The translations under genes were made by a program, and so were the position numbers. Below are positions 14,667-27,720 of a stretch of 64,000 nt of DNA, in pieces. Under the pieces are notes generated by a model, which saw only the letters and a list, made by a program, of their open reading frames with translations, was not told where the DNA came from and made no database searches. Source of the stretch: Bryoerythrophyllum caledonicum (lineage: Eukaryota > Streptophyta > Bryopsida > Pottiales > Pottiaceae); assembly GCA_963971425.1 (NCBI GenBank), contig OZ020520.1:11717807-11781806 (forward strand), given 5' to 3'. Positions within the stretch are counted from its first letter, which is position 1. The number at the start of each line of letters is the position of its first letter.

Positions 14667-14674
14667 ACCCAAGG
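14667..14674. repeat. Left target-site duplication of the hAT element
   Basis: ACCCAAGG directly precedes CAGGGTT; the same 8 bases directly follow the right terminus at 27,713-27,720. Eight bases is the length expected for hAT elements. Confidence 0.92.
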
Positions 14675-14698
14675 CAGGGTTGTCATACAAGACGGACG
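14675..14698 (+). repeat. Left terminal inverted repeat of the hAT element
   Basis: It begins CAGGGTTGTCAT and ends ACGGACG. It pairs with 27,693-27,712 with one mismatch in the first 12 bases and a 4-base length difference in the middle. Confidence 0.88.
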
Positions 14699-14757
14699 TC
14701 CGGTACGCCCGTCTGTCCGATTCGCCCGTCTGGTAAAACTCTCGCCCGTCCGATACA
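14691..14757 (+). repeat. Left subterminal CGCCCGTC repeats
   Basis: Three copies of CGCCCGTC, plus GACGTCCGG and TGTCCG, lie directly inside the left terminal repeat. The right end has the related CCGTCC series at 27,625-27,698 on the same strand. Short repeated motifs next to the termini are where hAT transposases such as Ac bind, so this is a likely transposase-binding region. Confidence 0.65.
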
Positions 14758-14888
14758 GCCAACTGAGGGTTGACTTACCCGCTAGGTAAAAAACAGGCGA
14801 CGTGGCAACCATGTTGGCACCACATAGCTGCCACGTCGGAGAGGGTCAAGTTTGAGTAGGATCGGGGACTAATGACAAGAGGGAGGTA

Positions 14889-14939
14889 GGGCGGAGACGT
14901 CCCCGCCCCTGCCCATATGGGGCGGGGACGTCTCCGCCC
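14889..14939. promoter_or_regulatory. GC-box cluster A (left end)
   Basis: Two near-palindromic 20-mers: GGGCGGAGACGTCCCCGCCC (14,889-14,908) and GGGCGGGGACGTCTCCGCCC (14,920-14,939). The cluster lies 214 bases inside the left end and downstream of the kinase gene, so here it is not a promoter of a visible gene. It mirrors cluster E at the right end. Confidence 0.8.
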
Positions 14940-14940
14940 C

Positions 14941-15359
14941 TTCATGAGTTAGTTAATAGTGTTTAACTATTGACACTATGCTGGTAAACTAAAATTTATG
15001 TTTACTGTAATATACACTAAATGTGAACCCATACACCAATTGCAAATGAGGCACTTAGTGTAGTGACATAACTGGACACTAAATGCCATTTACTACACTA
15101 TGTATCAATTTTTGTAGAAATAATAAATTTATTTCTTTCACTTGTGCACATTTAGTGTATCAATAGTGTATCAATAATTATTTGTGCTTGAACAAATGCA
15201 AATCTCGGATTTAGAATTTAAGATTTGGACGTATCCAATATTGATTAAAATATAACGTATGGCAATTGCCAAGTATACATATTCTTCTACAAAGATGCCG
15301 TATTGCCTATTTAACCACCACATGCCAAACTAATGCAGCTAATTAACAAAAAACTATTG
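14941..15359. other. AT-rich DNA between the left end and the kinase gene
   Basis: No ORF of note. It contains several copies of ACACTAAATG/TTTAGTGTA-like words and presumably includes the 3' UTR of the minus-strand kinase gene. Confidence 0.4.
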
Positions 15360-16934
15360 TCAGTAACAACATAGAGGCATAGTCCAGTTGTAGGGGGGTT
15401 TCATTAATGTGTCTAAAACATCTGGTACAGAAGACCGTTCTTCGAGCAGTTGTTTTTGCAACGCTATAAATTTTAGCTTCAGGTTTACATATTGCTCCGT
15501 GTTTTTGTTGGTGAAATACGAAGTGTCCCAATCTTCTTTCCAAAAAATTTCACAAATCCAACCCACCGCAAATGCATCTGCTGCCTTGGAGTAGAGGTGT
15601 GACCGTTGCATGACTTCAAGCGAGTTGGTAGAGTCCCGCGGCCCAAAATTATAGAACAGTTCTGGTGCCACAAACCGTCGCCCCTCTCTCTCTTGTTGAA
15701 GCTCCTCCTTGAATTGATAACCATACCTTGATCGCTCATTCTCCACAACCCGACTAGAAAGCCCCCAATCGCAAATTCCGATATACACCGTATCGGGTTT
15801 CCACTCATCAAAGTGGAGCAAAATATTCGATGGAGAGATGTCATTGTGTATATAATTTGCTTCGTGGCATTTCCTCACAATGACAAACAATGATAGCGCG
15901 AGGTTCTCTCGATTTTGGCGGAAAGTTTTTACCCACTGAAGCTCTTGGATCGACAACCCGGTATTTGGATGCATCTCAATCCGTTCAAATGGCAATGCTT
16001 TGTCCACTTTTGAGTCAAACTTGGACCAAAAAGAAGCCAGAGATCCCCCATTCCACCAAAGCGTGTACCCTTCCATAGTTTTCAGGTGGATGTACGCAAG
16101 TCTAATGATCCCAGGATGCACTACCGGACACCCTCCAGCCTCGTTGATGATGTTTCGGCGCTTCTCCCTCTCGTTGGTGTTGGTCAGAGTCTTTCCGGCA
16201 AAGTAAATCCAACTTGGAATGTTTTCCAATTTGGTTATCATCACCTTCCGTACAGCCCCATAGCCACCCACCACGCTCTACCCTGGCATTGGAATCACAT
16301 TAGCGCAACTTTCAAGCCACTTGAAAGTTCCACCAACGAAGTGAGCCAAAATTTGCCCCTCAATAGTCGCTTTCCAAGGAGCTAGTTTCTTCTTACGGGA
16401 AGAAGAGTACTGTTGAACGAAGCTCTGGATCATCCTCATCTTTGCCACTAGTGCGCGCTCCTCCAGGTTCCGGGTGCTTTCATCCTCCTTCTTCCCCGTG
16501 ACGTAACACCAGTTCACAACAATATAGGTGGTTAGTGTAGTCACTTGTGTGTCCAACCACTCTGAATGCACCCAATAATCTGAGAAATTATTAAATTTCT
16601 CAGATTTATCAAGGTTTGACATTAATTCGTGTCGCATGTCAACCGTCAACTTGTGGTATCCCTCTTCGTTGTGCGCCAAATAGCTCCTCATCAACGCCCT
16701 TCTCGTCCGACGGTTGTAAAATTCGACGGCAATCCCTCTACATTCAACCATGTATTCGTGCGGGGGCATGTCCGGATTTGGTGACTTCTTCCACCTCTTT
16801 CCACTCGATGATGACGGATTCAATGATCCCAAAGTCAACTCCGTCTTGGTGGATGGAAGAACCATCTCATCAATATCATCCAAGTCCATAAAGATTGGGC
16901 GCTTCTCCATCGACCTACTTCCTTCTCCCGTCAT
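15360..16934 (-). pseudogene. Protein kinase with an unknown N-terminal domain, one in-frame stop
   Basis: One minus-strand frame runs from ATG (16,932-16,934) to TGA (15,360-15,362), 524 codons, broken only by TAG at 16,278-16,280. The first 218 codons are an unrecognised domain with a basic SSSRKKKLAPWK stretch. The rest is a protein kinase: directly after the stop comes a glycine loop (GGYGAV), then a lysine in FAGKTL, the catalytic loop HNDISPSN (HRD with Arg replaced by Asn, so a non-RD kinase), DWG in place of DFG, and an APE motif in RFVAPELF. The Asp, Asn and Lys needed for phosphotransfer are present. The stop sits just before the glycine loop and could be CAG changed to TAG. It shares the GC-box/TATA region at 17,123-17,275 with the divergent RING gene. 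The substrate is unknown. It could still be expressed by readthrough or as two proteins, but decay is likelier. Confidence 0.75.
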
Positions 16935-17122
16935 ATGTGAGAGTCAACTCCCTACCGTGGTCGAAATTCCAAGTTGATGGTTTTAAAAAAACCGCAAAGA
17001 GTCTGGGTACAATAAATGGGCCAAGCCCGTTCACCCACCAAACTCACTTACAGGCCGCAAAGCGAACTAACACGTGAGGCCTAGGGAGTGGACTTGGCAG
17101 AGAATAAGGACAAAATGTTCCC

Positions 17123-17275
17123 TATTTATATGGTGTAGGGTTCTTTTTGCGAAGAGGTCCTCGCCCTACCTGGGAAGGGCAGGGACGCCTCCGCCACTAC
17201 CCAAAAAGGGTCGGAGACGTCCCGGCCCCTGCCCGGGGACCCTAGACTAGTGCTTCGTCTATCGGCTATATAATA
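17123..17275. promoter_or_regulatory. Bidirectional promoter with GC-box cluster B
   Basis: A minus-strand TATA box (TATAAATA, 17,123-17,130) faces the kinase gene. A plus-strand TATA box (CTATATAATAT, 17,266-17,275 region) faces the RING gene, whose ATG is at 17,407. Between them are two degenerate GC boxes: GGGCAGGGACGCCTCCGCC (17,178-17,196) and a GGGTCGGAGACGTCCCGGCC box (from 17,208). The pyrimidine-rich leader after the plus TATA (ATTGTCCTCGCCTCAC) is repeated in front of the paralogue (21,930s) and the transposase (23,430s). Confidence 0.72.
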
Positions 17276-17406
17276 TTGTGCACACCCCTAATTGTCCTCG
17301 CCTCACATACTTCCTCTTCATCCACCTCTTAATTGAGTTGGTTGTGGGCGTTGTGTGAGGACTTCATCCATTCGCATCACATACATTATTCAGATTTTCC
17401 CCACCC

Positions 17407-20400
17407 ATGGCCACGCCGGTAAAAATGAATAAAGAAGAACGAGACAAGAGCCGACTACGATCGGGAAACAAGCAGCGGAAGAGGTTGCATGTGCTTCGGA
17501 ATCCTGTTAAATTGACTTTCAAAGGTTGGGATGAAGTTCCGGAGCCATGGAGTTTCGAGGATTGCGCAAACTTCATCGAGTGGTGCCATATCGACAAGGC
17601 TTTCCCGGAGGAGCGACACAATTATCACCGACGCTTTCACAAGGCAAATTCATGGAAGTGCACCAACGAGGCGTTCAAAAATCGGTGCATTGAAGTATAC
17701 CACGTCTTGTACGACATCCCTTATATCAAACGCAATGAAGTAAATCTCTTCCTTACGCGAGGTGTCCAAGCGGAGGTAAAGTTGGGCAAGAGGGTGGATT
17801 GGTCCACCTTGAAAGCCATGGGAGATAGCATAAGAGTTCCTTCTCCGGCAAATGGATTGATTCCAATGGGGACACGGAGGTATCCAGAAGGCGGATTGTG
17901 CAAATTGATGGCGAAGACTGAACCGGTCGACACGTACGAGACCGATCCCTCAAACACGGATACAGACTCTGACAGATCCCATGTTCCAATCACAAGAGCC
18001 AAAGGACACAAGCGCGTACTAAACGAAGGAGGGCGGAACAAACGGTTAACGTAGTCGTTAACGAAACCGTTAATGAAGTTGGGGCTCAGGTACAATCCCC
18101 CGCGGTTGTTGATCGAACGTTAGAAGCCTCTACTACTGCTATTTTTGCCAACACTATCCAAACCTTGCTGAACCAATTGGAAGGGAAGACAACAGATCTA
18201 TTGTCATTGCGTGATGAGGTTCGCAAGTTGAGAGTTGAAGTCAATGATTAAAACATTGTTATTGACCAGCAAAGACGTGATATGGAGGAGCTCCGACTTG
18301 CCCTTCAAGCTAGTACAATGATCACAGAAGATCGGAATCCACGACGGGAGGAGGAAGGGCTTGTACTCGTGTCAACCCAAGACGATTCATTGTTGTTTGA
18401 TGAGGCCCCTACCAACGCAGATAAAGCTAAAGTCAACAAAGAAGAGGGTGCGGCGAGTGACGGCGGCAAAGAGCTCGCTAAAGCGCTTGAAGAGAATTCA
18501 AGACTACAAAGTCGCTTGGATGTGTTGGTAGAACATTACTATTAATGGAAGTTGGCTTGCATCTTCACGGTCGATCGGTCCCGACGATTGGTGGCGGAAT
18601 TCCAAAAAATCGACAACAACTATACCGAAAACAACCAGGAGAGGGTGTTTGGATTGACATCGTGGGCCCTTGTAAATGATCTTTTCAAGATGGATGAAAT
18701 GGCGATGGTGAAAACCGTTGGTGGGCAAACAACCATCGATTGGTCTCGTTACAAATGGGATTTCAAAAAGGAGGTTTCATCTACCCTTGATCATCGGGGC
18801 AAACCCATGTTATTGTGGCCACAACCTTCGAGCTTCATATCCGACGGTACGACTTGCTCAATTTGTCTAAACCCATTTGGTCCAGAAGGTGGGATGCATC
18901 TAGGCTTTTGTGAGCACTTCTCCCATCCATTTTGCTTGATTAGCTTGATGGTTGTACGCCGACGGTGCTCATTGTGCAAGGCCCATTTTCACGAGCGATT
19001 GTACGAACTTTTTGGATTAGTTCCATACGTGCCCCCGCATTGGGAGTTCAATGTGACGAACGCTCATGATCAATTACATATGTGGGGAAAGGATTTGGTG
19101 TGGAGCTGGAAACTGAAGATGCACTCGTTGGATAAGATGCACCTCTCAAACGAGTGGGGTTGAGAAAGGGACCCGGAGCAAATTGTCCGGGTGTGCAAGA
19201 ATTTGATCCCGTTAACCCCTAAAGATCCTTGAAAGCCAAAATGGCTTTTTGCTATTTCGGGTAGCCTAATTCAAGGGGTTAAATTTAATATTTTTGCAAA
19301 AGATTTTTCCGGGGTGTTCCCTATACTACAAGGTGTATGTGCAACAATTTGCAAAGTCGAATTCCAATTTTTGAGCTTATTTACTCAAATTTTAGTTTTC
19401 AACCTCTAGGCGGGCAGAAAAAAACTTTTTATTTTCAACATTTTTTTGAAATGTTTTTTTGCTAATATGTTCATAACTAATTTTCTATTCAAATTTCTAA
19501 GTGACCCATGTTAAACCTTTTACCAATTGTGCAACGGCAGCCTTTAAAAATTACAACAACAAGTTTCAAAGTTTTCCACAATATTACTTTTTCTTCTTTC
19601 AAAATTCGTCAAAATTTGAGATTTAATAATTTTTCGAAAATAATTTTTCCCGAAATTCACAAACTTAAAGAGGTACCTACTCACCGTTCATTTCATTCCT
19701 AAATTAAATACAACAAACGTGATGCATGTTTTTCCAAATCACCGTGTTTATACCTTGTGTTGGAAAATAATTTGCATGAAGGTCCAAAAAGCCAAATGAG
19801 TCTCTAAAATTTTGCATAGGCATTCAAAACATGATTCTCCACATGGAAAAAAATATGAGCAAAATGATTGGTGTAGCAATCATCAAGTTTTCCTTTGCAC
19901 AAAGTAGACTATGTCTTTTAAACAATGCCCAAAAAAAGTTTTGCATCAACTTTGAACATTATAATCTCACAAATGGTGCACATCCAACGGCTCAAATTTG
20001 ACTTCGTATGTTCCATAGTAGCTAGGTTCAAGATCCTACGGTTGAAAAAACTAAAAAACAGTAAATACATTGACCATACCTCAATTCCAACAAGGAGGTA
20101 GAAATTCGCAATTTTTGGTTTTCGAGCTCCCAAAAACACAAGGATTTTTAGGGGTTAAAGGACAAATACGGTCAAGGAAAACGAAATTTCTTCTACCAAT
20201 GCTTTAATGGCCATTGGGAAGAGAACGGGGAGTAATTTTGTTTCGAACCTCATCCACGGCAATGGTTGTAGGCCGTTGACGGAGTTCGCATCACAGACGA
20301 CAACGGGGATCGCATTTCTCACGACGTTGACCAACCGGACCCGCAAGAACTAAGACAATTATCGGAATCAGAGTGGAAAGAAATTTTCCGAAATGACGGA

Positions 20401-20634
20401 ATCGACTTCTTGCTTGATGTGCACAGTCCAGGGACACGGCAAACGCTCGACCAACTCATGCAATCCCAAATCCTAAGGGCCGTGTTGAATGAAGATGGAC
20501 CAGCGAGGAGAACACAATCGGCGTCTCGTAGACTTGTATTGGACTCAGATGAAGATCTCCCTATGCACGTAGGGCCACACGACAACAAGGCAGGGGCCAG
20601 TGGCACTACTAATAGCCCGATGAATATTGACTAG
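17407..20634 (+). pseudogene. Multi-domain cargo gene: unknown domain, coiled coil, RING-H2
   Basis: Segments in order: 17,407-18,054 encodes 215 aa of an unrecognised basic domain (core PWSFEDCANFIEWCHIDKAF, then HNYHRRFHK). A one-base frameshift in a GGAGGG run near 18,030 leads into a frame holding a coiled coil (about 18,100-18,540), a Trp-rich part, and a RING-H2 finger. Numbered from Met at 18,552, its ligands are C102, C105, C120, H122, H125, C128, C139 and C142 (C3H2C3). RING-H2 proteins are usually E3 ubiquitin ligases. The frame continues past a TTAA-flanked MITE (19,212-20,158) and runs to TAG at 20,632-20,634 through an acidic tail. In-frame stops: TAA 18,249, TAA 18,543, TGA 19,161, TAA 20,233, TAG 20,269. 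Intact length would be about 760 aa. No intron is needed. The first domain is duplicated at 22,051-22,706. Function within the element is unknown; ubiquitination of host silencing or transposition factors is speculation. Confidence 0.7.
19212..20158. mobile_element. TTAA-flanked MITE inserted in the RING gene
   Basis: Both ends are TTAA followed or preceded by a terminal repeat: TTAACCCCTAAAGATCCTTG on the left and, on the minus strand, TTAACCCCTAAAAATCCTTG on the right (one mismatch). Deleting the element and one TTAA (943 bases) restores the reading frame of the RING gene exactly. TTAA targets and CCC-type termini are piggyBac-like. It has no coding capacity. The same terminal sequence bounds the copy at 48,940-49,872. 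Confidence 0.82.
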
Positions 20635-20875
20635 GTGTATTTTTTGTTTTTGCGGTACCAAGAGACAATTTTCTTACAATTCTTCATCTTTCAGCGTTTA
20701 ATGTATTTTCCCATTTTCGTATTACATTATGGATACCAAAAAAAAATATGAATAGTACTGTCTACATTCTACTTGATAATAGTGGTGTGATTATGGATGT
20801 ACTTAAGCCTCATAAGGATTTGTGCGTTTGTATAAAAAAAATGGTGTGAACTAAGTTTTAAACCTCCAAACATTT

Positions 20876-21520
20876 TTAATCCCTAAAGGACCAAGGCATT
20901 TTTGCACCAAAAACACTTCAAAACTGCGAGGCTATAGTATAATGCCTAAGAATGGAGACAAAACCTTTTTATTTCTACATCTAACCGTACGATCACAATA
21001 AATACTTCTTTGTTAATGTCCCCACAAAATTTCATAAATTTTAACCACACGGATTGAAAGGCTTGCATAGCTCCCATGCTATTCACTACTTGGTATCAAA
21101 TTTTTGCACTAGATAAGGCCTAAATCCATTACTAATGGTAGTTTAGGATGATGTTAGTTCCTTATACACCAATTGTTAGAGGTAGAAAAAGGGTGTACCT
21201 TATTCAAGTCAACTATGCTAGTAGTGGAAGCTAAAAAATGGGCAAGTAACGTTTTAGTTTTTAGATACTTGATATGTTTTAGATTGATGTATATTTATGG
21301 TCAATATGAAGGTCTACACCACATATTGTTGTGGAAAAAATCAAAAGTATAAAAAGTTAAAATCTCTAAGTTTTATGTGGTAAGACTTTTTTGTTTTTGG
21401 TACCTTGCCCGTTATATTTTGGCAATATGTGAAAATCTTTGACTTGAGTTGAAGCGTTATTTTCCACTAAAGACAAGGAATTTTTTTTAAATTTTGGAAG
21501 GGAATAATTTTCTACACTCT
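20876..21520. repeat. TTAA repeat family copy, right end missing
   Basis: It starts TTAATCCCTAAAGGACCAAG and then parallels 48,940-49,580 and 50,620-51,260 over long stretches (for example a conserved GAGGTAAA-A-GGGTGTA word, a CACCATATTGTTG-like word and GTGAAAAT-TTTGACTTG). The right terminal repeat is absent. It lies in the 3' region of the RING gene, within the hAT element. Confidence 0.6.
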
Positions 21521-21537
21521 TATGTTTGCTCCAAAAC

Positions 21538-21720
21538 TAATAGGGAGCTAATAAAGGTGTTCCTTATTAGAGAGCATGCCGTCAAAGTACAAAAGGTGTA
21601 CTTTCCATTTCGCCTTCCTCCCTAGAACTAGGGAAAGACATAATCTGCATGTTATTTTAAGTGCATTAGGATCTTGTTGGAACCAAAAATAAATCACTCC
21701 ATATTCAATTGTGCACCCAC
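21538..21720. repeat. Segment repeated at 23,080-23,255 in front of the next module
   Basis: AGGGAGCTAATAAAGGTGTT, then a GAGAGCATGC word, GACATAA-CTGC, ATTTTAAGTGC and GGAACCAAAAATAA occur in the same order in both places, each ahead of a GC-box cluster. The modules of the hAT element therefore arose by segmental duplication. Confidence 0.75.
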
Positions 21721-21796
21721 CTTATGGAGATGAGGAGTGCCTCGGCCAAGCAAGAGTGGCCTCAAATGCCTCGTTGGAAAGTATTGTGGGGACGAA

Positions 21797-21899
21797 CCCC
21801 CCCCCCCCAATTTACAAGCAAACGTCCCCGCCCCTGCCCGAGTATGGGGCGGAGACGTCTACGCCCCATACCCGGGCAGGGGCGGGGACATCTCCGCCC
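21797..21899. promoter_or_regulatory. GC-box cluster C, promoter of the paralogue
   Basis: A C12 run (21,797-21,808) is followed by a half box (AACGTCCCCGCCC, about 21,820-21,833) and two full boxes: GGGCGGAGACGTCTACGCCC (21,847-21,866) and GGGCGGGGACATCTCCGCCC (21,880-21,899). The leader that follows (GTCCCCGCCTCGCATAC, then GTGGGCGTTGTGCGAGG) is homologous to that of the RING gene. No good TATA box remains at the expected spot (ACTATTTGAATG). Confidence 0.72.
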
Positions 21900-22050
21900 C
21901 CACCGGATTACTATTTGAATGGAGGGAGACCTCATTTGTCCCCGCCTCGCATACTCCTATCCACCATCTCTTTATTGAGCTCGATGTGGGCGTTGTGCGA
22001 GGTATCTTTCATCCATCCACGCCAGAATTTTTCATTCACACGTGCACACC

Positions 22051-22706
22051 ATGTCTTCATCCGGACAATTGGCCAAGGAGGAGCGAGAGAAGACCCGTGC
22101 AAGAGCGGGGAACGCCCATCGAAAGCGGTTGCATGTTCTTCGTTATCTCCAGAAGTTGGCTTTTCGAGGTTGGAAGGCCGTAGTGGAGCCATGGAGTTTT
22201 GATGATTGCGCGAACTACATCGAGTGGTGCCACATCGACAAGGCTTTCCCAGAGGCGCGACACAACTATCACCGGCGCTTCCACAAGGCAAACTTGAAAC
22301 ATTGCATCGAAGAGACGTTTAAAAACCGATACATCGAAGTTTACCAAGTGTTGTATGACGTCCCATTCGTCAAACGCAACGAAGTAAATCTCTTCATTGC
22401 GCGGGGTGTTCATGCGGAGGTGAAGTTGGCAAGATATTGGATTGGTCCACTTTGAATTCGATGCCGGGGAAGGTAAAAATTCCTCGCCCTGAAAATGGAA
22501 TAATTCCAATGGGATGGCGCAAGTATCCGGAAGGTGGATTGGGCAAGTTCATGACTGTGATGGACGACACACCTAGCTATGATACTGATACGTCAAGTAC
22601 AGATGATGACTCCGACGGAACCCATGTCCAAGTCACGAGCGAAAAGGCACAAGCACGTGGTAGGCTGAGAAGGACCGAACGAGCCCTTCACCAAAGTTAC
22701 TATTGA
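22051..22706 (+). pseudogene. Shortened paralogue of the cargo gene's N-terminal domain
   Basis: ATG at 22,051 was chosen because the frame upstream offers only GTG. The first 134 codons align without gaps to residues 9-140 of the 17,407 gene, about 70% identical by eye (PWSFDDCANYIEWCHIDKAF, HNYHRRFHKAN, KRNEVNLF). A one-base frameshift at 22,430 (GG where the paralogue has GGG) moves to the second frame, which ends with an acidic DTDTSSTDDDSD tail and TGA at 22,704-22,706. There is no coiled coil or RING. Whether it is a truncated duplicate or the original single-domain gene cannot be decided here. Its promoter resembles that of the larger gene. Confidence 0.7.
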
Positions 22707-22813
22707 CTAGGAGTATTTAAAGGTTTAGGACGTAGCAAATCAATTTTGTGAACAATACTTTTGCTCTAAACATTATATGATTTTAAATATCCTTTTTGTT
22801 TGTATTGGTACAA

Positions 22814-23075
22814 TTTATTTAGAGAACTTGCACATTACATTCTACTAGAGGCTTATACTATCCGTTATGGATGGGGACTTGCATAGCTTCCATGCTATTC
22901 ACTACTTGGTTTATTTTTTTTCTTTAATGGTATGTGGTACATTCCTAATCTTTTGTGGGGCAATTGTGTTTAAATTATTTATTTAGAGAACTTGCACATT
23001 ACATTCAACTAGAGGCTTATACTACCCATTATGGATGGGGACTTGCATAGCTCCCATGCTATTCACTACTTGATC
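22814..23075. repeat. Tandem duplication of a 3' flanking segment
   Basis: ATTTAGAGAACTTGCACATT through GACTTGCATAGC and CCATGCTATTCACTACTTG occurs at 22,817-22,910 and again at 22,980-23,073. Part of it (CTTGCATAGCTCCCATGCTA) is also at 21,062-21,100. Confidence 0.8.
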
Positions 23076-23309
23076 TAAAAGGGAGCTAATAAAGGTGTTC
23101 ATTATAAGAGAGCATGCGGTGAAAGGACAAAAGTAGTACCTTCTTGAAAGCCTTTCTTCATAGACATAACCTGCTTCTTATTTTAAGTGCGTCGCAATCT
23201 TGTCGGAACCAAAAATAAGGTACCCTATATTAAAACCTCCACCCTCCTCATGGAGAGCAGGAGTGCCTAAGCACCTAAAATGCCCCGAAGGCCTCCTTCT
23301 CCTGGGTTG

Positions 23310-23422
23310 GGGAGGCGTCCCAGCCCTGACCTAGTAAGGGCGGGGACGTCTCCGCCCCTGCACGGAGACGTCCCCGCCCTTGGCACGTCAGGTCCCACCC
23401 GTTCTTGGCTCGTGTATAAAAG
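23310..23422 (+). promoter_or_regulatory. GC-box cluster D and TATA box of the transposase gene
   Basis: It has a degenerate box at about 23,310-23,326, a full box GGGCGGGGACGTCTCCGCCC (23,338-23,357) and an inverted one CACGGAGACGTCCCCGCCC (23,361-23,379). TATAAAAGG follows at 23,414-23,422 and then the ATTGTCCTC leader shared with the RING gene promoter. Confidence 0.75.
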
Positions 23423-23678
23423 GTTTGGGGAGGGCCGATTGTCCTCACGCTTGTCACCTTGGCCTCTATCCCTTGGACCTCAATTTAGTTTGAGCTCCTT
23501 GCGAGTCCACTTGGATGGCAGGCGGCACTAGTGTGCAGCTAAGGTGATGTAAAAATTGGTTCAAATAGTGCACCAACGCTATCAGACCTCACATTTTCAC
23601 CTGATTCTATACTATAACTAGCTCCGGATTTTGGCTTAGACGGGACTTGCACATTATTTGGCATAAGCCGTGAATGCA

Positions 23679-26600
23679 ATGGGAAGTCAAAGGAAGCAAA
23701 CAAAAGAATGGGAACCTTGGTACAATTTTGGTGACAACGGGGGCAAAGTGAGTTGTGTTTTCTGTAACTATACTTTTAGCTACAAACAAGAGCGTGCGTT
23801 CGCTCACTTTGGATACGGCGCCAAGTCAGAGAGGTCGATTTGTGGTAGCCTACCTCCCTATGTGCAAAGTCGATTTGCCAATTGTAGAAACATTGTTCCG
23901 CAACGAATGACGGGCGGGGACATGTATGGCGGAAATTCAAAGGCGAGTGGTCCATCGAGGGCACCAACTATTGACACTTCAAGCCAATCCGACGCTCAAA
24001 ATAATGAGGCGGGCGGGATAACAAGTGGGCCTCAGGAAGGAGTGTCTAATCTTTCTGAAGGAAACGACCGCGAACATGTGTCGGGTAGTTTTACCGCCTC
24101 GAATTCCACTAGATCTGGGCAACTACATCAACAACGGATGCTTGATGCTTTTAACATTGCAAAGAGGAAGGAACTTGATGAGAAGTGGGCGACCTTTTAC
24201 TATCAAGCGAATGTGCCTTTTAATGTGGCGCGAAATCAAGCGTTCATCGATGCAGTGAGGGCAACATCCGTGGCAAAGTTTGAGTACACTCCTCCTACAT
24301 ATCACCAGTTGAGGACTAGATTGATTGAACCTAAGAGGTTGCAAATTGGGAAAGAGATTGAAGCCAAGTTGGTTTTGCAATCAAGAATTATGGGGTGTCG
24401 ATATGCACGGATGGTTGGGATGATGTCCACCAGAGGCCCCTCATGAATTTAATGATGTCGTGCCCCACTGGTGACGTATTCTTCGGGAGCATAAACACCA
24501 GTGGTGAGAAGAAGTCCATGCGGTACATAGCGGACCAAGTGAAAGTTTACATTGAGAAGGTGGGTTCCAAAAATGTGACACAAATTTGTACAGACAATGC
24601 TCCCAATATGCTTGGAGCGATGGATGATATTATTCTCACATACCCGTACATTCACAAGTAGGCGTGCATGGCACATGCATTGGATCTCATATTGGAAGAT
24701 TGGACGAAGGTCCAAGAATTTAAAGATTTAATAGAGAGGGCAAAGAAATTGTGCAAATATATTAGAAACCATCATTCGACAATGGGGACACTTCGTGAGT
24801 TGAGTCCAAACCTGCATATTGTAGTGCCCACTGAAACCCGCTTTGCTTGTAATTTCCTTATGTTGGATCGATTGGTGAGACTCAAAGGAGTGTTGGAGCA
24901 GTTGAAAGACCACCCCCGTATTGTAAACTACTTTGCAACCCTACGGAACAAACAAAATGGAAAGCAAGCAGCAACCGCAGCGCGTAATGTGGTGCTCAAC
25001 ATCGAAGATGTGGCCTTTTGGCAACGATGTCAGAATTACGTGCACATGATTGGGGATGTTTTGAAGGCAGTGCGTGTATTTGATGGCCGCAAACCAACCA
25101 TGGGTCGTGCGTGGCTCGTAATGCACAATTTGCGAGAACACGTGTACTCTTTGAGAGAGTCACCCTTTACTCTACGAGCTGACATAGCATCCACTCTTGA
25201 GCAATCTTTTGATGCCCAGTGGCAAATGGTTTTTACCGATGTTCACTACCCGGGGCTCTTTTGAATCCGTACCTCAAGAATAATGTGGCACTTAAGGCTG
25301 ACAGAATCGCACAAAGAGCATTGAATCGGGTTATTCGCAAAATGATGGATGTATTGGAAGTCTCATATGAGGACGTCCAATATGAGTTAACACAGTACGA
25401 GGAGGGCACAGGACCATATGGCCCTACCGAGGCATCTGACATCCGCCAGACAAAGCTTCAACTCCACCAATGGTGGGCCAGGATCGCAGACAAGGCATTG
25501 ACTAAAATAGTTGTTCGTATTCTAGCCCTTACGTGTTCAGCTAGCTCTTGCGAACGAAATTGGAGTATGTACTCGTTCGTCCACAACAAGAGCCGAAATC
25601 GATTAGCGGCAGAAAAGGCTGCGTCATTGGTGTATATTTATACCAATAGCCGATGCCTTCAACAAAGACCAGGGGCCGATCCCGTTCGATGGTACGATGC
25701 GAATATTCACTCGGAGGATTCCGACCCAGATGCCCTAAGGCCGGTCCCAGTGGGTGAACCTAATCGTGAATTTCATGTCTTGATAGCCGAGGAAGAGGAG
25801 GAGCACAATATGGCAGCTCCCCGCACTCTGCTGGAGTATCGTGGACACCCTAATCTTTGGGCGGAATGCGCCGATCATCTTGAGGAAACGAGAAACTATT
25901 ACGGAGATGATGACGATATGGAAGAAGAATTGGCTCACGGTCGTTGGGGACCTTGGAATCAAAGTCCTCGTCGCAGTCCTTTGCCTCATCTTCCTCAAAA
26001 TGAGGGCATTCATGAAGTGCAACCTTTGTCTACTTCCTTAGAGAGCGACATCCCAAATGTGACTAACCTTGAAGAGCCTGAAACGGGGGGGGCAATGTCG
26101 GGAATGTTCGCGACGAGGACAATTCCCCATTAGACTATGGTGGTGGAAATGGAGATGGCGACAACAACGGAGCCAGAGATAACGCAGTAAATACTGCGAC
26201 TCAAAACAACCAAGCATCGGTTGAAAACCGGTATGGCCAAGAGAGCCCTAGTGGAATGGGTGCATCATTTCATAGCACTGGAGTCATTCAAGGAGATTCT
26301 AACGCAAATGTTGTAAACACAACAATTGTAGGGACGACTCGAAGAAATGAAAGGGTTGTTAATCAGCGAAAGCGTTTTGACCCGGAATATGTAGACCCCG
26401 ATGATGCTTTTGCATTCACAGAGGACCTTGAGCCACAACCATCTCCGGTTGTGGTGTTGCCTACGGTTATCAATGACCAGAATGTACCAACGCCGCCTTC
26501 CCGGAATTCCTCTTCTCCTAGAACGGCGAATGCCATGTATGGACCTTTCCAACGAAGTGTAGGCGTTGAGGGGATGGGTCTAAACACTTCCGCTACTACT

Positions 26601-27146
26601 ACCAGAAACGGCAGACCCCCTTTGGCCACTACAAGGATGCCTCTTCATCCAATGGGTCAATATATACAACCGAGTGCAAGGACTAATGCTCGTGGAGGGT
26701 CTAGAGGCCGTGGAGTGGCTAGAGGCCGTGAAGGAAGAAACAACGGCGAAGCATCCTCCTCAAGGCATCGTAGACGTCCCCTCCTTGGAATAGGGGCACG
26801 AGATCCGAACGTGGTTGTACAACCGTTTTTGGACACATATGTTCCAAGACGCTCTTCAACAACCCCGGCGTTTGTTGTTCCGAATCGAGCAAATCGTCCT
26901 ACCAGCGGTCCAACCATAAATTCCGACGGCAATGATCCTCACGCACATCGACAAAAGAGATTCAAACTCTCGCGTTGCGATGCTGAAACAGTCGTAGAGC
27001 TTCGTAATGACAACTCTGAAATAGAGGGCTTTTGGACTACGGATGGTAGCAATGGAGAATTCTCATATGAGAGCGGCGAAGGAGCTGATGATGACTACCG
27101 TCAAGATTGTGATGAGGCACCAGATGATGATGATATCGTCCTTTGA
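23679..27146 (+). pseudogene. hAT transposase (BED finger, DUF659, C-terminal dimerisation), frameshifted
   Basis: ATG at 23,679 is preferred over the upstream GTG. Domains in order: BED-type zinc finger (CVFC then a downstream H, about residues 26-50); a low-complexity linker; the DUF659/RNase H-like core with TDGW (24,405) and CTDNAPNM (24,590); the C-terminal hAT dimerisation block with SSCERNWS and NKSRNRL (25,540-25,600); then a long Arg/Gly- and acid-rich tail to TGA at 27,144-27,146. Total is about 1,158 codons in four frame segments. One-base frameshifts occur at GGGG near 24,392, GGGG near 25,252 and G8 at 26,085-26,092, and a TAG at 24,659-24,661. All frameshifts are in the same direction. 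It would catalyse excision and insertion of this element. With so few lesions an intact sister copy probably exists elsewhere in the genome. Confidence 0.88.
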
Positions 27147-27426
27147 GATGCGGTTATGGGTGGCCCGTCCATCGATGGAGTGCGCAGATCGGACCGTTTG
27201 AATAATTATAGGACAAGAAAAGTAACTACATATATGTATGCGAAATCAAGAGAGTTGTGATAATTCATAGAAGAAGCTAGGAGAGAAAAAGGTTTCTTAG
27301 ATAACTACAAGATATTACTTCGTTTGGAAGTATGAGATTAGAGAATTGTTGTTTTATCGTGAAACTTTTTAATGTAATAAACATATTTTGCTTCCAGACA
27401 TTAAGGCCTCTCCGCTCAATGATGTA

Positions 27427-27530
27427 GGGGCGTGGACGCCTACATGAGGGGCGGGGACATCTATGCCCCAGGGGAGGCGTCTCCGCCCCTCATGGTGACG
27501 TCCTCGTCCCTTATGGAGACGTCCCCGCCC
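27427..27530. promoter_or_regulatory. GC-box cluster E (right end)
   Basis: Four or five boxes: GGGGCGTGGACGCCTAC, GGGCGGGGACATCTATGCCC (27,449-27,468), GGGAGGCGTCTCCGCCC (27,472-27,488), a degenerate TGACGTCCTCGTCC, and GGAGACGTCCCCGCCC (27,515-27,530). It lies 182 bases inside the right end, after the transposase gene, mirroring cluster A. Confidence 0.8.
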
Positions 27531-27624
27531 TAGTGCCACGGTGGCGTGACACATCCGTATGTGACGTGTCGATCACAGTAAAAATTTCTTACTTGCAAAA
27601 AATTACTAGGCGCTCTTTGGGCAA

Positions 27625-27698
27625 TCCGTCCGAACCGTCCGTCCATGCCGTCCGGACCGCCCGTCCGGTTGTCCCGTCCGATCACCTCAACACGTCCG
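27625..27698 (+). repeat. Right subterminal CCGTCC repeats
   Basis: About seven CCGTCC/CGTCCG words in 75 bases directly inside the right terminal repeat. They lie on the same strand as the CGCCCGTC series at the left end, so the subterminal arrays are direct, not inverted. Confidence 0.65.
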
Positions 27699-27712
27699 TT
27701 ATGAGAACCCTG
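27693..27712 (-). repeat. Right terminal inverted repeat of the hAT element
   Basis: On the minus strand it reads CAGGGTTCTCATAACGGACG, the counterpart of the left terminus. Confidence 0.88.
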
Positions 27713-27720
27713 ACCCAAGG
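27713..27720. repeat. Right target-site duplication of the hAT element
   Basis: ACCCAAGG, identical to 14,667-14,674. Confidence 0.92.

Follow-up and report, generated by a model that had tools for sequence, protein, structure and literature searches.

Why should a plant hAT transposon carry a protein kinase and a RING protein between its ends? The question is raised by a stretch of 64,000 nucleotides from Bryoerythrophyllum caledonicum (assembly GCA_963971425.1, contig OZ020520.1, positions 11,717,807 to 11,781,806 of the forward strand), here called the window, in which an earlier note made from the letters alone had proposed a hAT element with cargo genes. The element analyzed here occupies positions 14675-27712 (13038 bp; all positions are window coordinates). 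It is one dead, decayed copy of a family of four-gene hAT transposons, in which gene A (protein kinase), gene B (RING protein), gene C (short paralogue of B) and gene D (transposase) lie between hAT ends. We regard the anatomy of this four-gene element as close to certain. The best explanation of the locus as a whole is probably such a family equipped with an accessory mechanism, in which the kinase, the RING protein and its small partner may form a toolkit serving the element.

A four-gene unit between hAT ends

The element termini are CAGGGTT...AACCCTG, written out as CAGGGTTGTCATA... and ...TATGAGAACCCTG, and the short form of the family ends is CAGGGTTGTC. The left terminal inverted repeat (CAGGGTTGTCATA..., 14675-14695, plus strand) and the right one (...GAGAACCCTG, 27692-27712, minus strand) are flanked by the two copies of the target site duplication ACCCAAGG (14667-14674 and 27713-27720), which agree in 8 of 8 bases. 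The matching CAGGGTT ends and the perfect duplication described in the earlier note are confirmed by the sequence at 14667-14695 and 27692-27720. An 8-bp duplication, short CAGGG inverted repeats, a C-terminal dimerisation domain in the transposase and mobility of the unit were all found, as in hAT elements.

The genome (437 Mb in 894 contigs; the window element is on contig C8) was searched for further copies. The first 726 bases of the element have at least 40 matches at 92-100% identity, the element itself among them (the best 40 of 2030 candidates), and the ten best further places (c1-c10) were fetched as stretches of 17 kb. Seven of the ten (c2-c8) span left to right end with the gene order unchanged, and c4, c6 and c8 are nearly complete. 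Copy c1 is broken by foreign sequence and exceeds the fetched stretch, and c9 and c10 have no right end inside their 17 kb. Over the first 13 bases the left and right ends are identical at 13 positions in c3, c4, c6 and c7, at 12 in the window, c2 and c8, and at 11 in c5. Six of the seven end-to-end copies carry duplications of their own, complete (8/8) in c3, c5 and c6, complete in c8 once an altered first base is allowed for, and 7/8 in c4 and c7; none was found in c2. These duplications differ among themselves and from that of the window, and the copies, which are about 92-96% identical, lie on several chromosomes. Because the end-to-end copies carry their own, differing duplications, the whole unit has moved. 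The earlier note had named, as the check on its idea of a stable multi-gene transposon, copies that share both gene set and ends but differ in their 8-bp duplications, and such copies were found.

Genome-wide counts point the same way. Diagnostic 26-mers, at up to 2 mismatches, detected 349 kinase, 335 RING and 374 transposase places, with none in the backwards controls, and these nearly equal numbers correspond to roughly 350 gene-bearing copies in the host genome. Exact 26-mers on C1:1-62.9 Mb gave 64 kinase, 39 RING and 100 transposase places. A RING or transposase match lies on the expected side of 45 of the 64 kinase places, a kinase or transposase partner was found at 32 of the 39 RING places, and all three genes occur together at 14 places (flipped-strand controls 1, 0 and 0; wrong-side controls 1 and 0). 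From C1 to part of C4, an exact RING partner accompanies 36 of 100 exact kinase places, compared with none on the flipped strand and none on the wrong side. These exact-match counts are lower bounds, since mutated copies drop out.

The left ends and the transposase copies were also followed outwards. An exact kinase match lies 1.1-1.9 kb inside 22 of 56 exact left ends (flipped control 1). Six of the 34 ends without the exact kinase 26-mer were fetched, 5-6.5 kb each: L039 and L041 keep the kinase or the kinase end, L044 is gene-less, and L040, L042 and L043 hold other sequence. L044 is 4734 bp long and has family ends, the perfect duplication ATTTCATC and 33 sites of the motif described below; it has no match to the proteins of the four-gene unit, and its longest frame does not exceed 153 residues. 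In L040, 6.27 kb with 16 motif sites lie between family left ends in inverted order, without genes of the unit or a matching duplication. Among the transposase copies listed on C1-C4, 6 of 24 lack both the exact kinase and the exact RING 26-mer. The 9 kb upstream of four of these hold a full unit (L033), a unit cut at 21069 (L031), an assembly gap (L032) and a long array of the 164-bp repeat (L034), and no case of a transposase-only subfamily was established among these four stretches. In L032, the gap is preceded, from 6879 and upstream of the transposase copy, by an unrelated element whose left end is CAGGGTTGTCAGGACG. A diverged transposase query (P0005) matched at least 150 places at 67-74%.

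Genes and motif arrays of the element

Frames were read in 11 other copies (c1-c10 and one further). All four genes are intronless across copies, and in the window all four are broken. Gene A (15360-16934, minus strand) encodes a protein kinase domain and a conserved N-terminal part. Its 529-residue frame is open in c3 and interrupted in the window by a stop codon at 16278-16280, and the two separate kinase reading frames of the window copy belong to this single frame. The Pfam Pkinase match (5e-11) is above the cut-off, the kinase model has a predicted local distance difference test score (pLDDT) of 80, and among 29 aligned sequences K251 and N373 are invariant and D368 and D392 nearly so. 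With the VAIK lysine and the HxD, N and DxG residues present, gene A is predicted to encode a eukaryotic protein kinase.

Gene D (23679-27209, plus strand) encodes the hAT transposase with DUF659, Dimer_Tnp_hAT and a long C-terminal tail. A 1175-residue frame without stops is found in the further copy (L037/L038), and the window copy has several stops or frame shifts. DUF659 (PF04937) is matched at 4e-24 by a window piece and at 8e-36 by c8 (123 bits, cut-off 34.7), and Dimer_Tnp_hAT (PF05699) at 27.0 bits in the window, 22.3 in c8 and 28.5 in c6 (cut-off 21.4). These profile matches bear out the hAT transposase that had been proposed between the ends. TDGW, TDNA and CERNWS, noted by eye in the transposase frames, may hold the catalytic D, D and E.

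Gene B (17407-20634, plus strand) comprises an N-domain, a coiled coil, a RING-H2 domain and a conserved C-terminal part in a 777-residue frame that is open in c6. The earlier note was right in listing a kinase, a RING gene and a transposase; the frame upstream of the RING domain, which it had treated as a separate unknown, belongs to the same protein as the RING part, and the genes are four in all. In the window several stops or frame shifts disrupt gene B, as does a nested insertion of some 938 bp (19216-20153), which is foreign to the element family and absent from c1-c10. This insertion has inverted ends of about 23 bp and, as read by eye, a TTA duplication, and we take it to be PIF/Harbinger-like. 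The zf-RING_2 profile is matched at E<=0.01 by 18 of 21 aligned sequences (query counted), and the B RING profile matches the RINGs of RNF24, RNF38 and Arkadia. The ligands C500, C503, C518, H523, C526, C537 and C540 are nearly invariant among the 21 sequences, the remaining ligand position being variable. With its RING-H2 ligands in RING order, B appears to be an E3-like protein with predicted ubiquitin ligase activity.

Gene C (22051-22706, plus strand) is a short paralogue of the B N-domain in which the RING is absent. Its 242-residue frame is open in c3, c4, c6, c7, c8 and c10 and frame-shifted in the window. The duplication of one cargo domain seen in the earlier note holds, 17405-17704 and 22049-22348 being 74% identical in DNA. 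Between B and C of one copy, over 153 codons, the rate of nonsynonymous substitution (dN) is 0.148 and that of synonymous substitution (dS) 0.917, a dN/dS of 0.16. Judged by this codon comparison, the N-domain of B and C is under purifying selection.

The genes are accompanied by arrays of a GC-rich 17-mer (query GGAGACGTCCCCGCCCC, short form GTCCNCGCCC), whose sites were counted at up to 3 mismatches. The window element has 20 sites in five clusters: at the left end (14889-14945, with GGGCGGAGACGTCCCCGCCCC palindromic units), between genes A and B, whose transcription diverges from there (17177-17234), ahead of gene C (21814-21905), ahead of gene D (23307-23385, where the number of sites differs among copies) and at the right end (27449-27536). 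No site was found in 50,946 flanking bases or in 20 shuffles. The earlier note had claimed promoter sequence common to the cargo and transposase genes, and these clusters confirm it. Five clusters are also present in c3-c8 and four in c2, where the cluster before C is deleted; the sites number 18-43 in c2-c8 and 10, 18 and 28 in c1, c9 and c10. Since the gene-less L044 keeps its 33 sites, the motif is a property of the element and not of promoters alone.

Other repeats lie around genes C and D. The blocks ahead of the two genes are repeated (21537-21742 and 23075-23268), and a spaced repeat of 164 bp occurs twice between them (22800-23077). In some copies this repeat has grown to long arrays, as in L034 (3356-8600, about 30 units), upstream of the transposase copy. 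The duplication copies, motif clusters, nested insertion and spaced repeat have no strand assigned. Pieces 71-74% similar to window positions 21087-21510 lie outside the element in the c1 and c9 stretches, and this segment of the window may therefore be a further repeat. At 1-738, an open frame was seen by eye to have a C-x-C...C-x-H pattern like that of a SWIM-type zinc finger.

Diverged relatives and the age of the kinase/RING pair

Protein searches recovered 51 relatives of the kinase (69-26% identity, with query coverage of at least 70% in 32) and 21 relatives of B (66-28% identity, with the same coverage in 15). Among kinase relatives with a query coverage of at least 86%, identity falls as low as 26%, and among B relatives with a coverage of at least 92% as low as 37%. 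In the alignments of these relatives the catalytic kinase residues and most zinc-binding residues are conserved. Of the kinase relatives, one carries the name of the moss Ceratodon purpureus and another (P0008) is assigned to a Bacilli bin. A viral origin or spread was rejected, because no relative was found in the viral_contigs scans made with the RING alignment, the kinase alignment and the transposase.

A diverged B query gave 16 places which, from match range and frame length, were read as two further B subfamilies (best 53 of 3742 candidates). A diverged kinase query gave at least 81 places at 39-45%, two of which, on contig C7, look like main-family members (529-residue frames beside left ends). 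By position, a listed kinase lies head-to-head with B, 0.9-2.2 kb away, at 6 of the 16 diverged B places; two of the other ten start less than 0.8 kb from a contig start, where a kinase partner cannot show. A seventh pair was found at C3:5502679, the opposite-strand kinase being 33% identical over the N-terminal 300 residues. Six GTCCGCGCCC units lie there between the kinase and B starts, and the diverged B is followed by one exact GTCCGCGCC, two near copies (by eye) and the right end ...TATGACAACCCTG. A copia-type retrotransposon-like frame (L046 640-3000, by eye) adjoins this right end.

A further diverged B, 38% identical, comes from another sample (L029, CADCWO010000051.1), on a eukaryotic-looking transposon contig that is binned in a cyanobacterial genome. 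Seven 21-bp motif units precede this gene, the right end ...TTTTTGACAACCCTG follows it with one motif unit close by, and L029 has 8 sites of the 17-mer. A kinase candidate from the same bin was rejected as a trivial match of just 27 residues. The kinase/RING pair is thus old, and B is tied to hAT ends beyond the family studied here. Judging from the divergence of its relatives, the pair is far older than the four-gene family. Tentatively, the kinase and the RING protein might be an ancient selfish hAT module, a phosphorylation/ubiquitylation switch addressed by a DNA motif at ends and promoters. Such a module would have been retained by several deeply diverged subfamilies, probably of more than one organism, and would possibly travel in part in trans-mobilised elements of its own.

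Possible functions and alternative explanations

Eukaryotic cut-and-paste elements are mostly seen as one- or two-gene parasites, and descriptions of Ac/Ds, Tam3 and Tag1 give each a single gene and a length of a few kb. The present family resembles these plant hAT elements in its 8-bp duplications, short CAGGG ends and DUF659/Dimer_Tnp_hAT transposase, but differs in its length of about 11-13 kb, its three further conserved genes and a transposase of about 1175 residues with a long tail. In the open-licence literature, taken as titles and the beginnings of abstracts, no multi-gene hAT element with kinase, RING or accessory genes was found. KDZ and Zisupton-type elements are eukaryotic DNA elements with chromatin or SUMO/ubiquitin-related accessory genes; they likewise have conserved accessory enzymes, but belong to other transposase families and hosts. 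CACTA elements, which are autonomous DNA elements of plants, resemble the present family in their large size, subterminal repeats and regulatory proteins. VANDALs are Mutator-like, whereas the present transposase is of the hAT type. CACTA elements are not known to carry a kinase/RING pair, nor VANDALs a kinase or RING protein. The present family differs from CACTA elements such as En/Spm and the 20.5-kb soybean element (PMC2613891) in superfamily and ends. VANDALs, with VANA, VANB and the anti-silencing VANC, are similar in being multi-gene plant elements with a short non-coding motif. VANC21 of VANDAL21 in Arabidopsis removes methylation and binds a 9-base motif in the non-coding regions of that element; the target motifs often stand in tandem arrays, which differ from one related element to the next, and the proteins evolve with their targets (PMC5735166). 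Motif binding was demonstrated there, whereas for the present element we infer it by analogy. On this comparison, VANDAL/VANC appears to be the nearest functional analogue.

A mechanism can be proposed on these grounds. Mobilisation by the transposase is established for hAT transposases, and D, as a member of that family, would cut and paste the element. Its motif arrays, at ends and promoters, would serve as an address label that is read by one of the element's own proteins, at best guess through the N-domain of B and C, or else by the transposase. Most likely, B would be tethered to the arrays and its RING would ubiquitylate a silencing factor or another chromatin protein, so that promoters and ends stay open. 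C, which has no RING, may tune B as competitor or partner, and the kinase A may switch B, C or the transposase. Because of the analogy with VANC21, tethering of B was given the greatest weight, with control of the transposase almost as likely. An anti-silencing role of the accessory proteins is, on that analogy, a serious possibility that falls short of probable.

Several observations weigh against the reading of a four-gene family with an accessory toolkit. The earlier note had proposed looking for intact copies. Each gene does have an open frame in one copy or another, but in no single one of the 11 others read are all four genes open. Internal deletions have removed pieces of A and C in c2, the end of B in c3, a piece of D in c5 and a piece of A in c7. 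On C1 an exact kinase or RING partner accompanies no more than 49 of the 100 exact transposase places, and about one third of the 542 places matched by a left-end 29-mer (up to 3 mismatches) are unmatched by the gene counts, the threshold for the ends being the looser; this excess fits derivatives such as L044. The RING of the window copy (E = 4e-4) falls under the Pfam cut-off, and the structure predicted for B is of low quality (pLDDT 54.7), with no fold for the N-domain and only weak RING matches. In comparisons among 8 to 11 copies per gene (D1 and D2 overlap), omega for singleton differences is 0.82-0.93, close to neutrality. For shared variants it is 0.06-0.65, which suggests constraint, but such variants are not numerous, the shared nonsynonymous/synonymous counts being 17/16 for A, 21/17 for B, 1/8 for C, 13/9 for D1 and 16/10 for D2. 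Binding by the transposase alone would explain the motif equally well. The C3 copy keeps one half of the motif, GTCCGCGCCC, but the GGAGACGTC core was not found there within 1 mismatch. Kinase, transposase and left end are absent from the L029 contig. In the C3 copy (L045/L046) and in L029 the right end directly follows B, so that neither a transposase nor C lies on that side, the left sides being unseen. The layout with four genes may thus be peculiar to the subfamily studied.

Such an arrangement, in which no further gene separates B from the right end, would be expected if an older element holding only the kinase and RING genes between hAT ends had fused with a transposase element bearing C and D and then spread, the pair perhaps also travelling separately and being mobilised in trans. 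The repeated blocks common to the regions before C and D are consistent with this merger, but with the left sides of the diverged elements unseen a transposase may lie upstream of their kinase. We consider the merger a credible if unproven alternative, somewhat short of even chances.

Another possibility, which we hold with rather more doubt, is that the accessory proteins regulate transposition and not silencing. The transposase would then bind the motif as its subterminal site, the activity or turnover of the transposase would be controlled by the kinase and RING protein, and C would be a repressor derived from B. Subterminal repeats occur in hAT and other plant elements, and clusters at both ends that persist in the gene-less L044 with its family ends are what transposase sites would produce. 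However, the clusters also lie at internal promoters, where transposase cutting does not need them, and in L029 the motif precedes B though no transposase follows that gene.

Chance capture of host genes, amplified with an active copy, would leave copies as alike as those found here, since hitch-hiking inside a family would look the same. It is largely contradicted by the diverged head-to-head kinase/RING pairs of other subfamilies, by the diverged B with motif and hAT right end in another sample, and by the open intronless frames and the constraint between B and C, and we judge it very improbable. The rejection of random capture in the earlier note is upheld by these pairs, by the near-equal gene counts and by the gene set shared among seven of ten fetched copies, six with their own duplications. 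A tandem or assembly artefact mimicking an element is contradicted by these duplications and by the spread over several chromosomes, and its probability is negligible.

The four-gene family with an accessory toolkit thus places a conserved kinase, an E3-like protein, an adaptor and a motif common to ends and promoters in some 350 gene-bearing copies of a hAT element. Its small open frames and 17-bp motif make the question of element versus silencing testable. If the proposed mechanism is true, the family would join VANDAL/VANC as another, independently arisen case of a transposon that bears its own control or counter-silencing apparatus.

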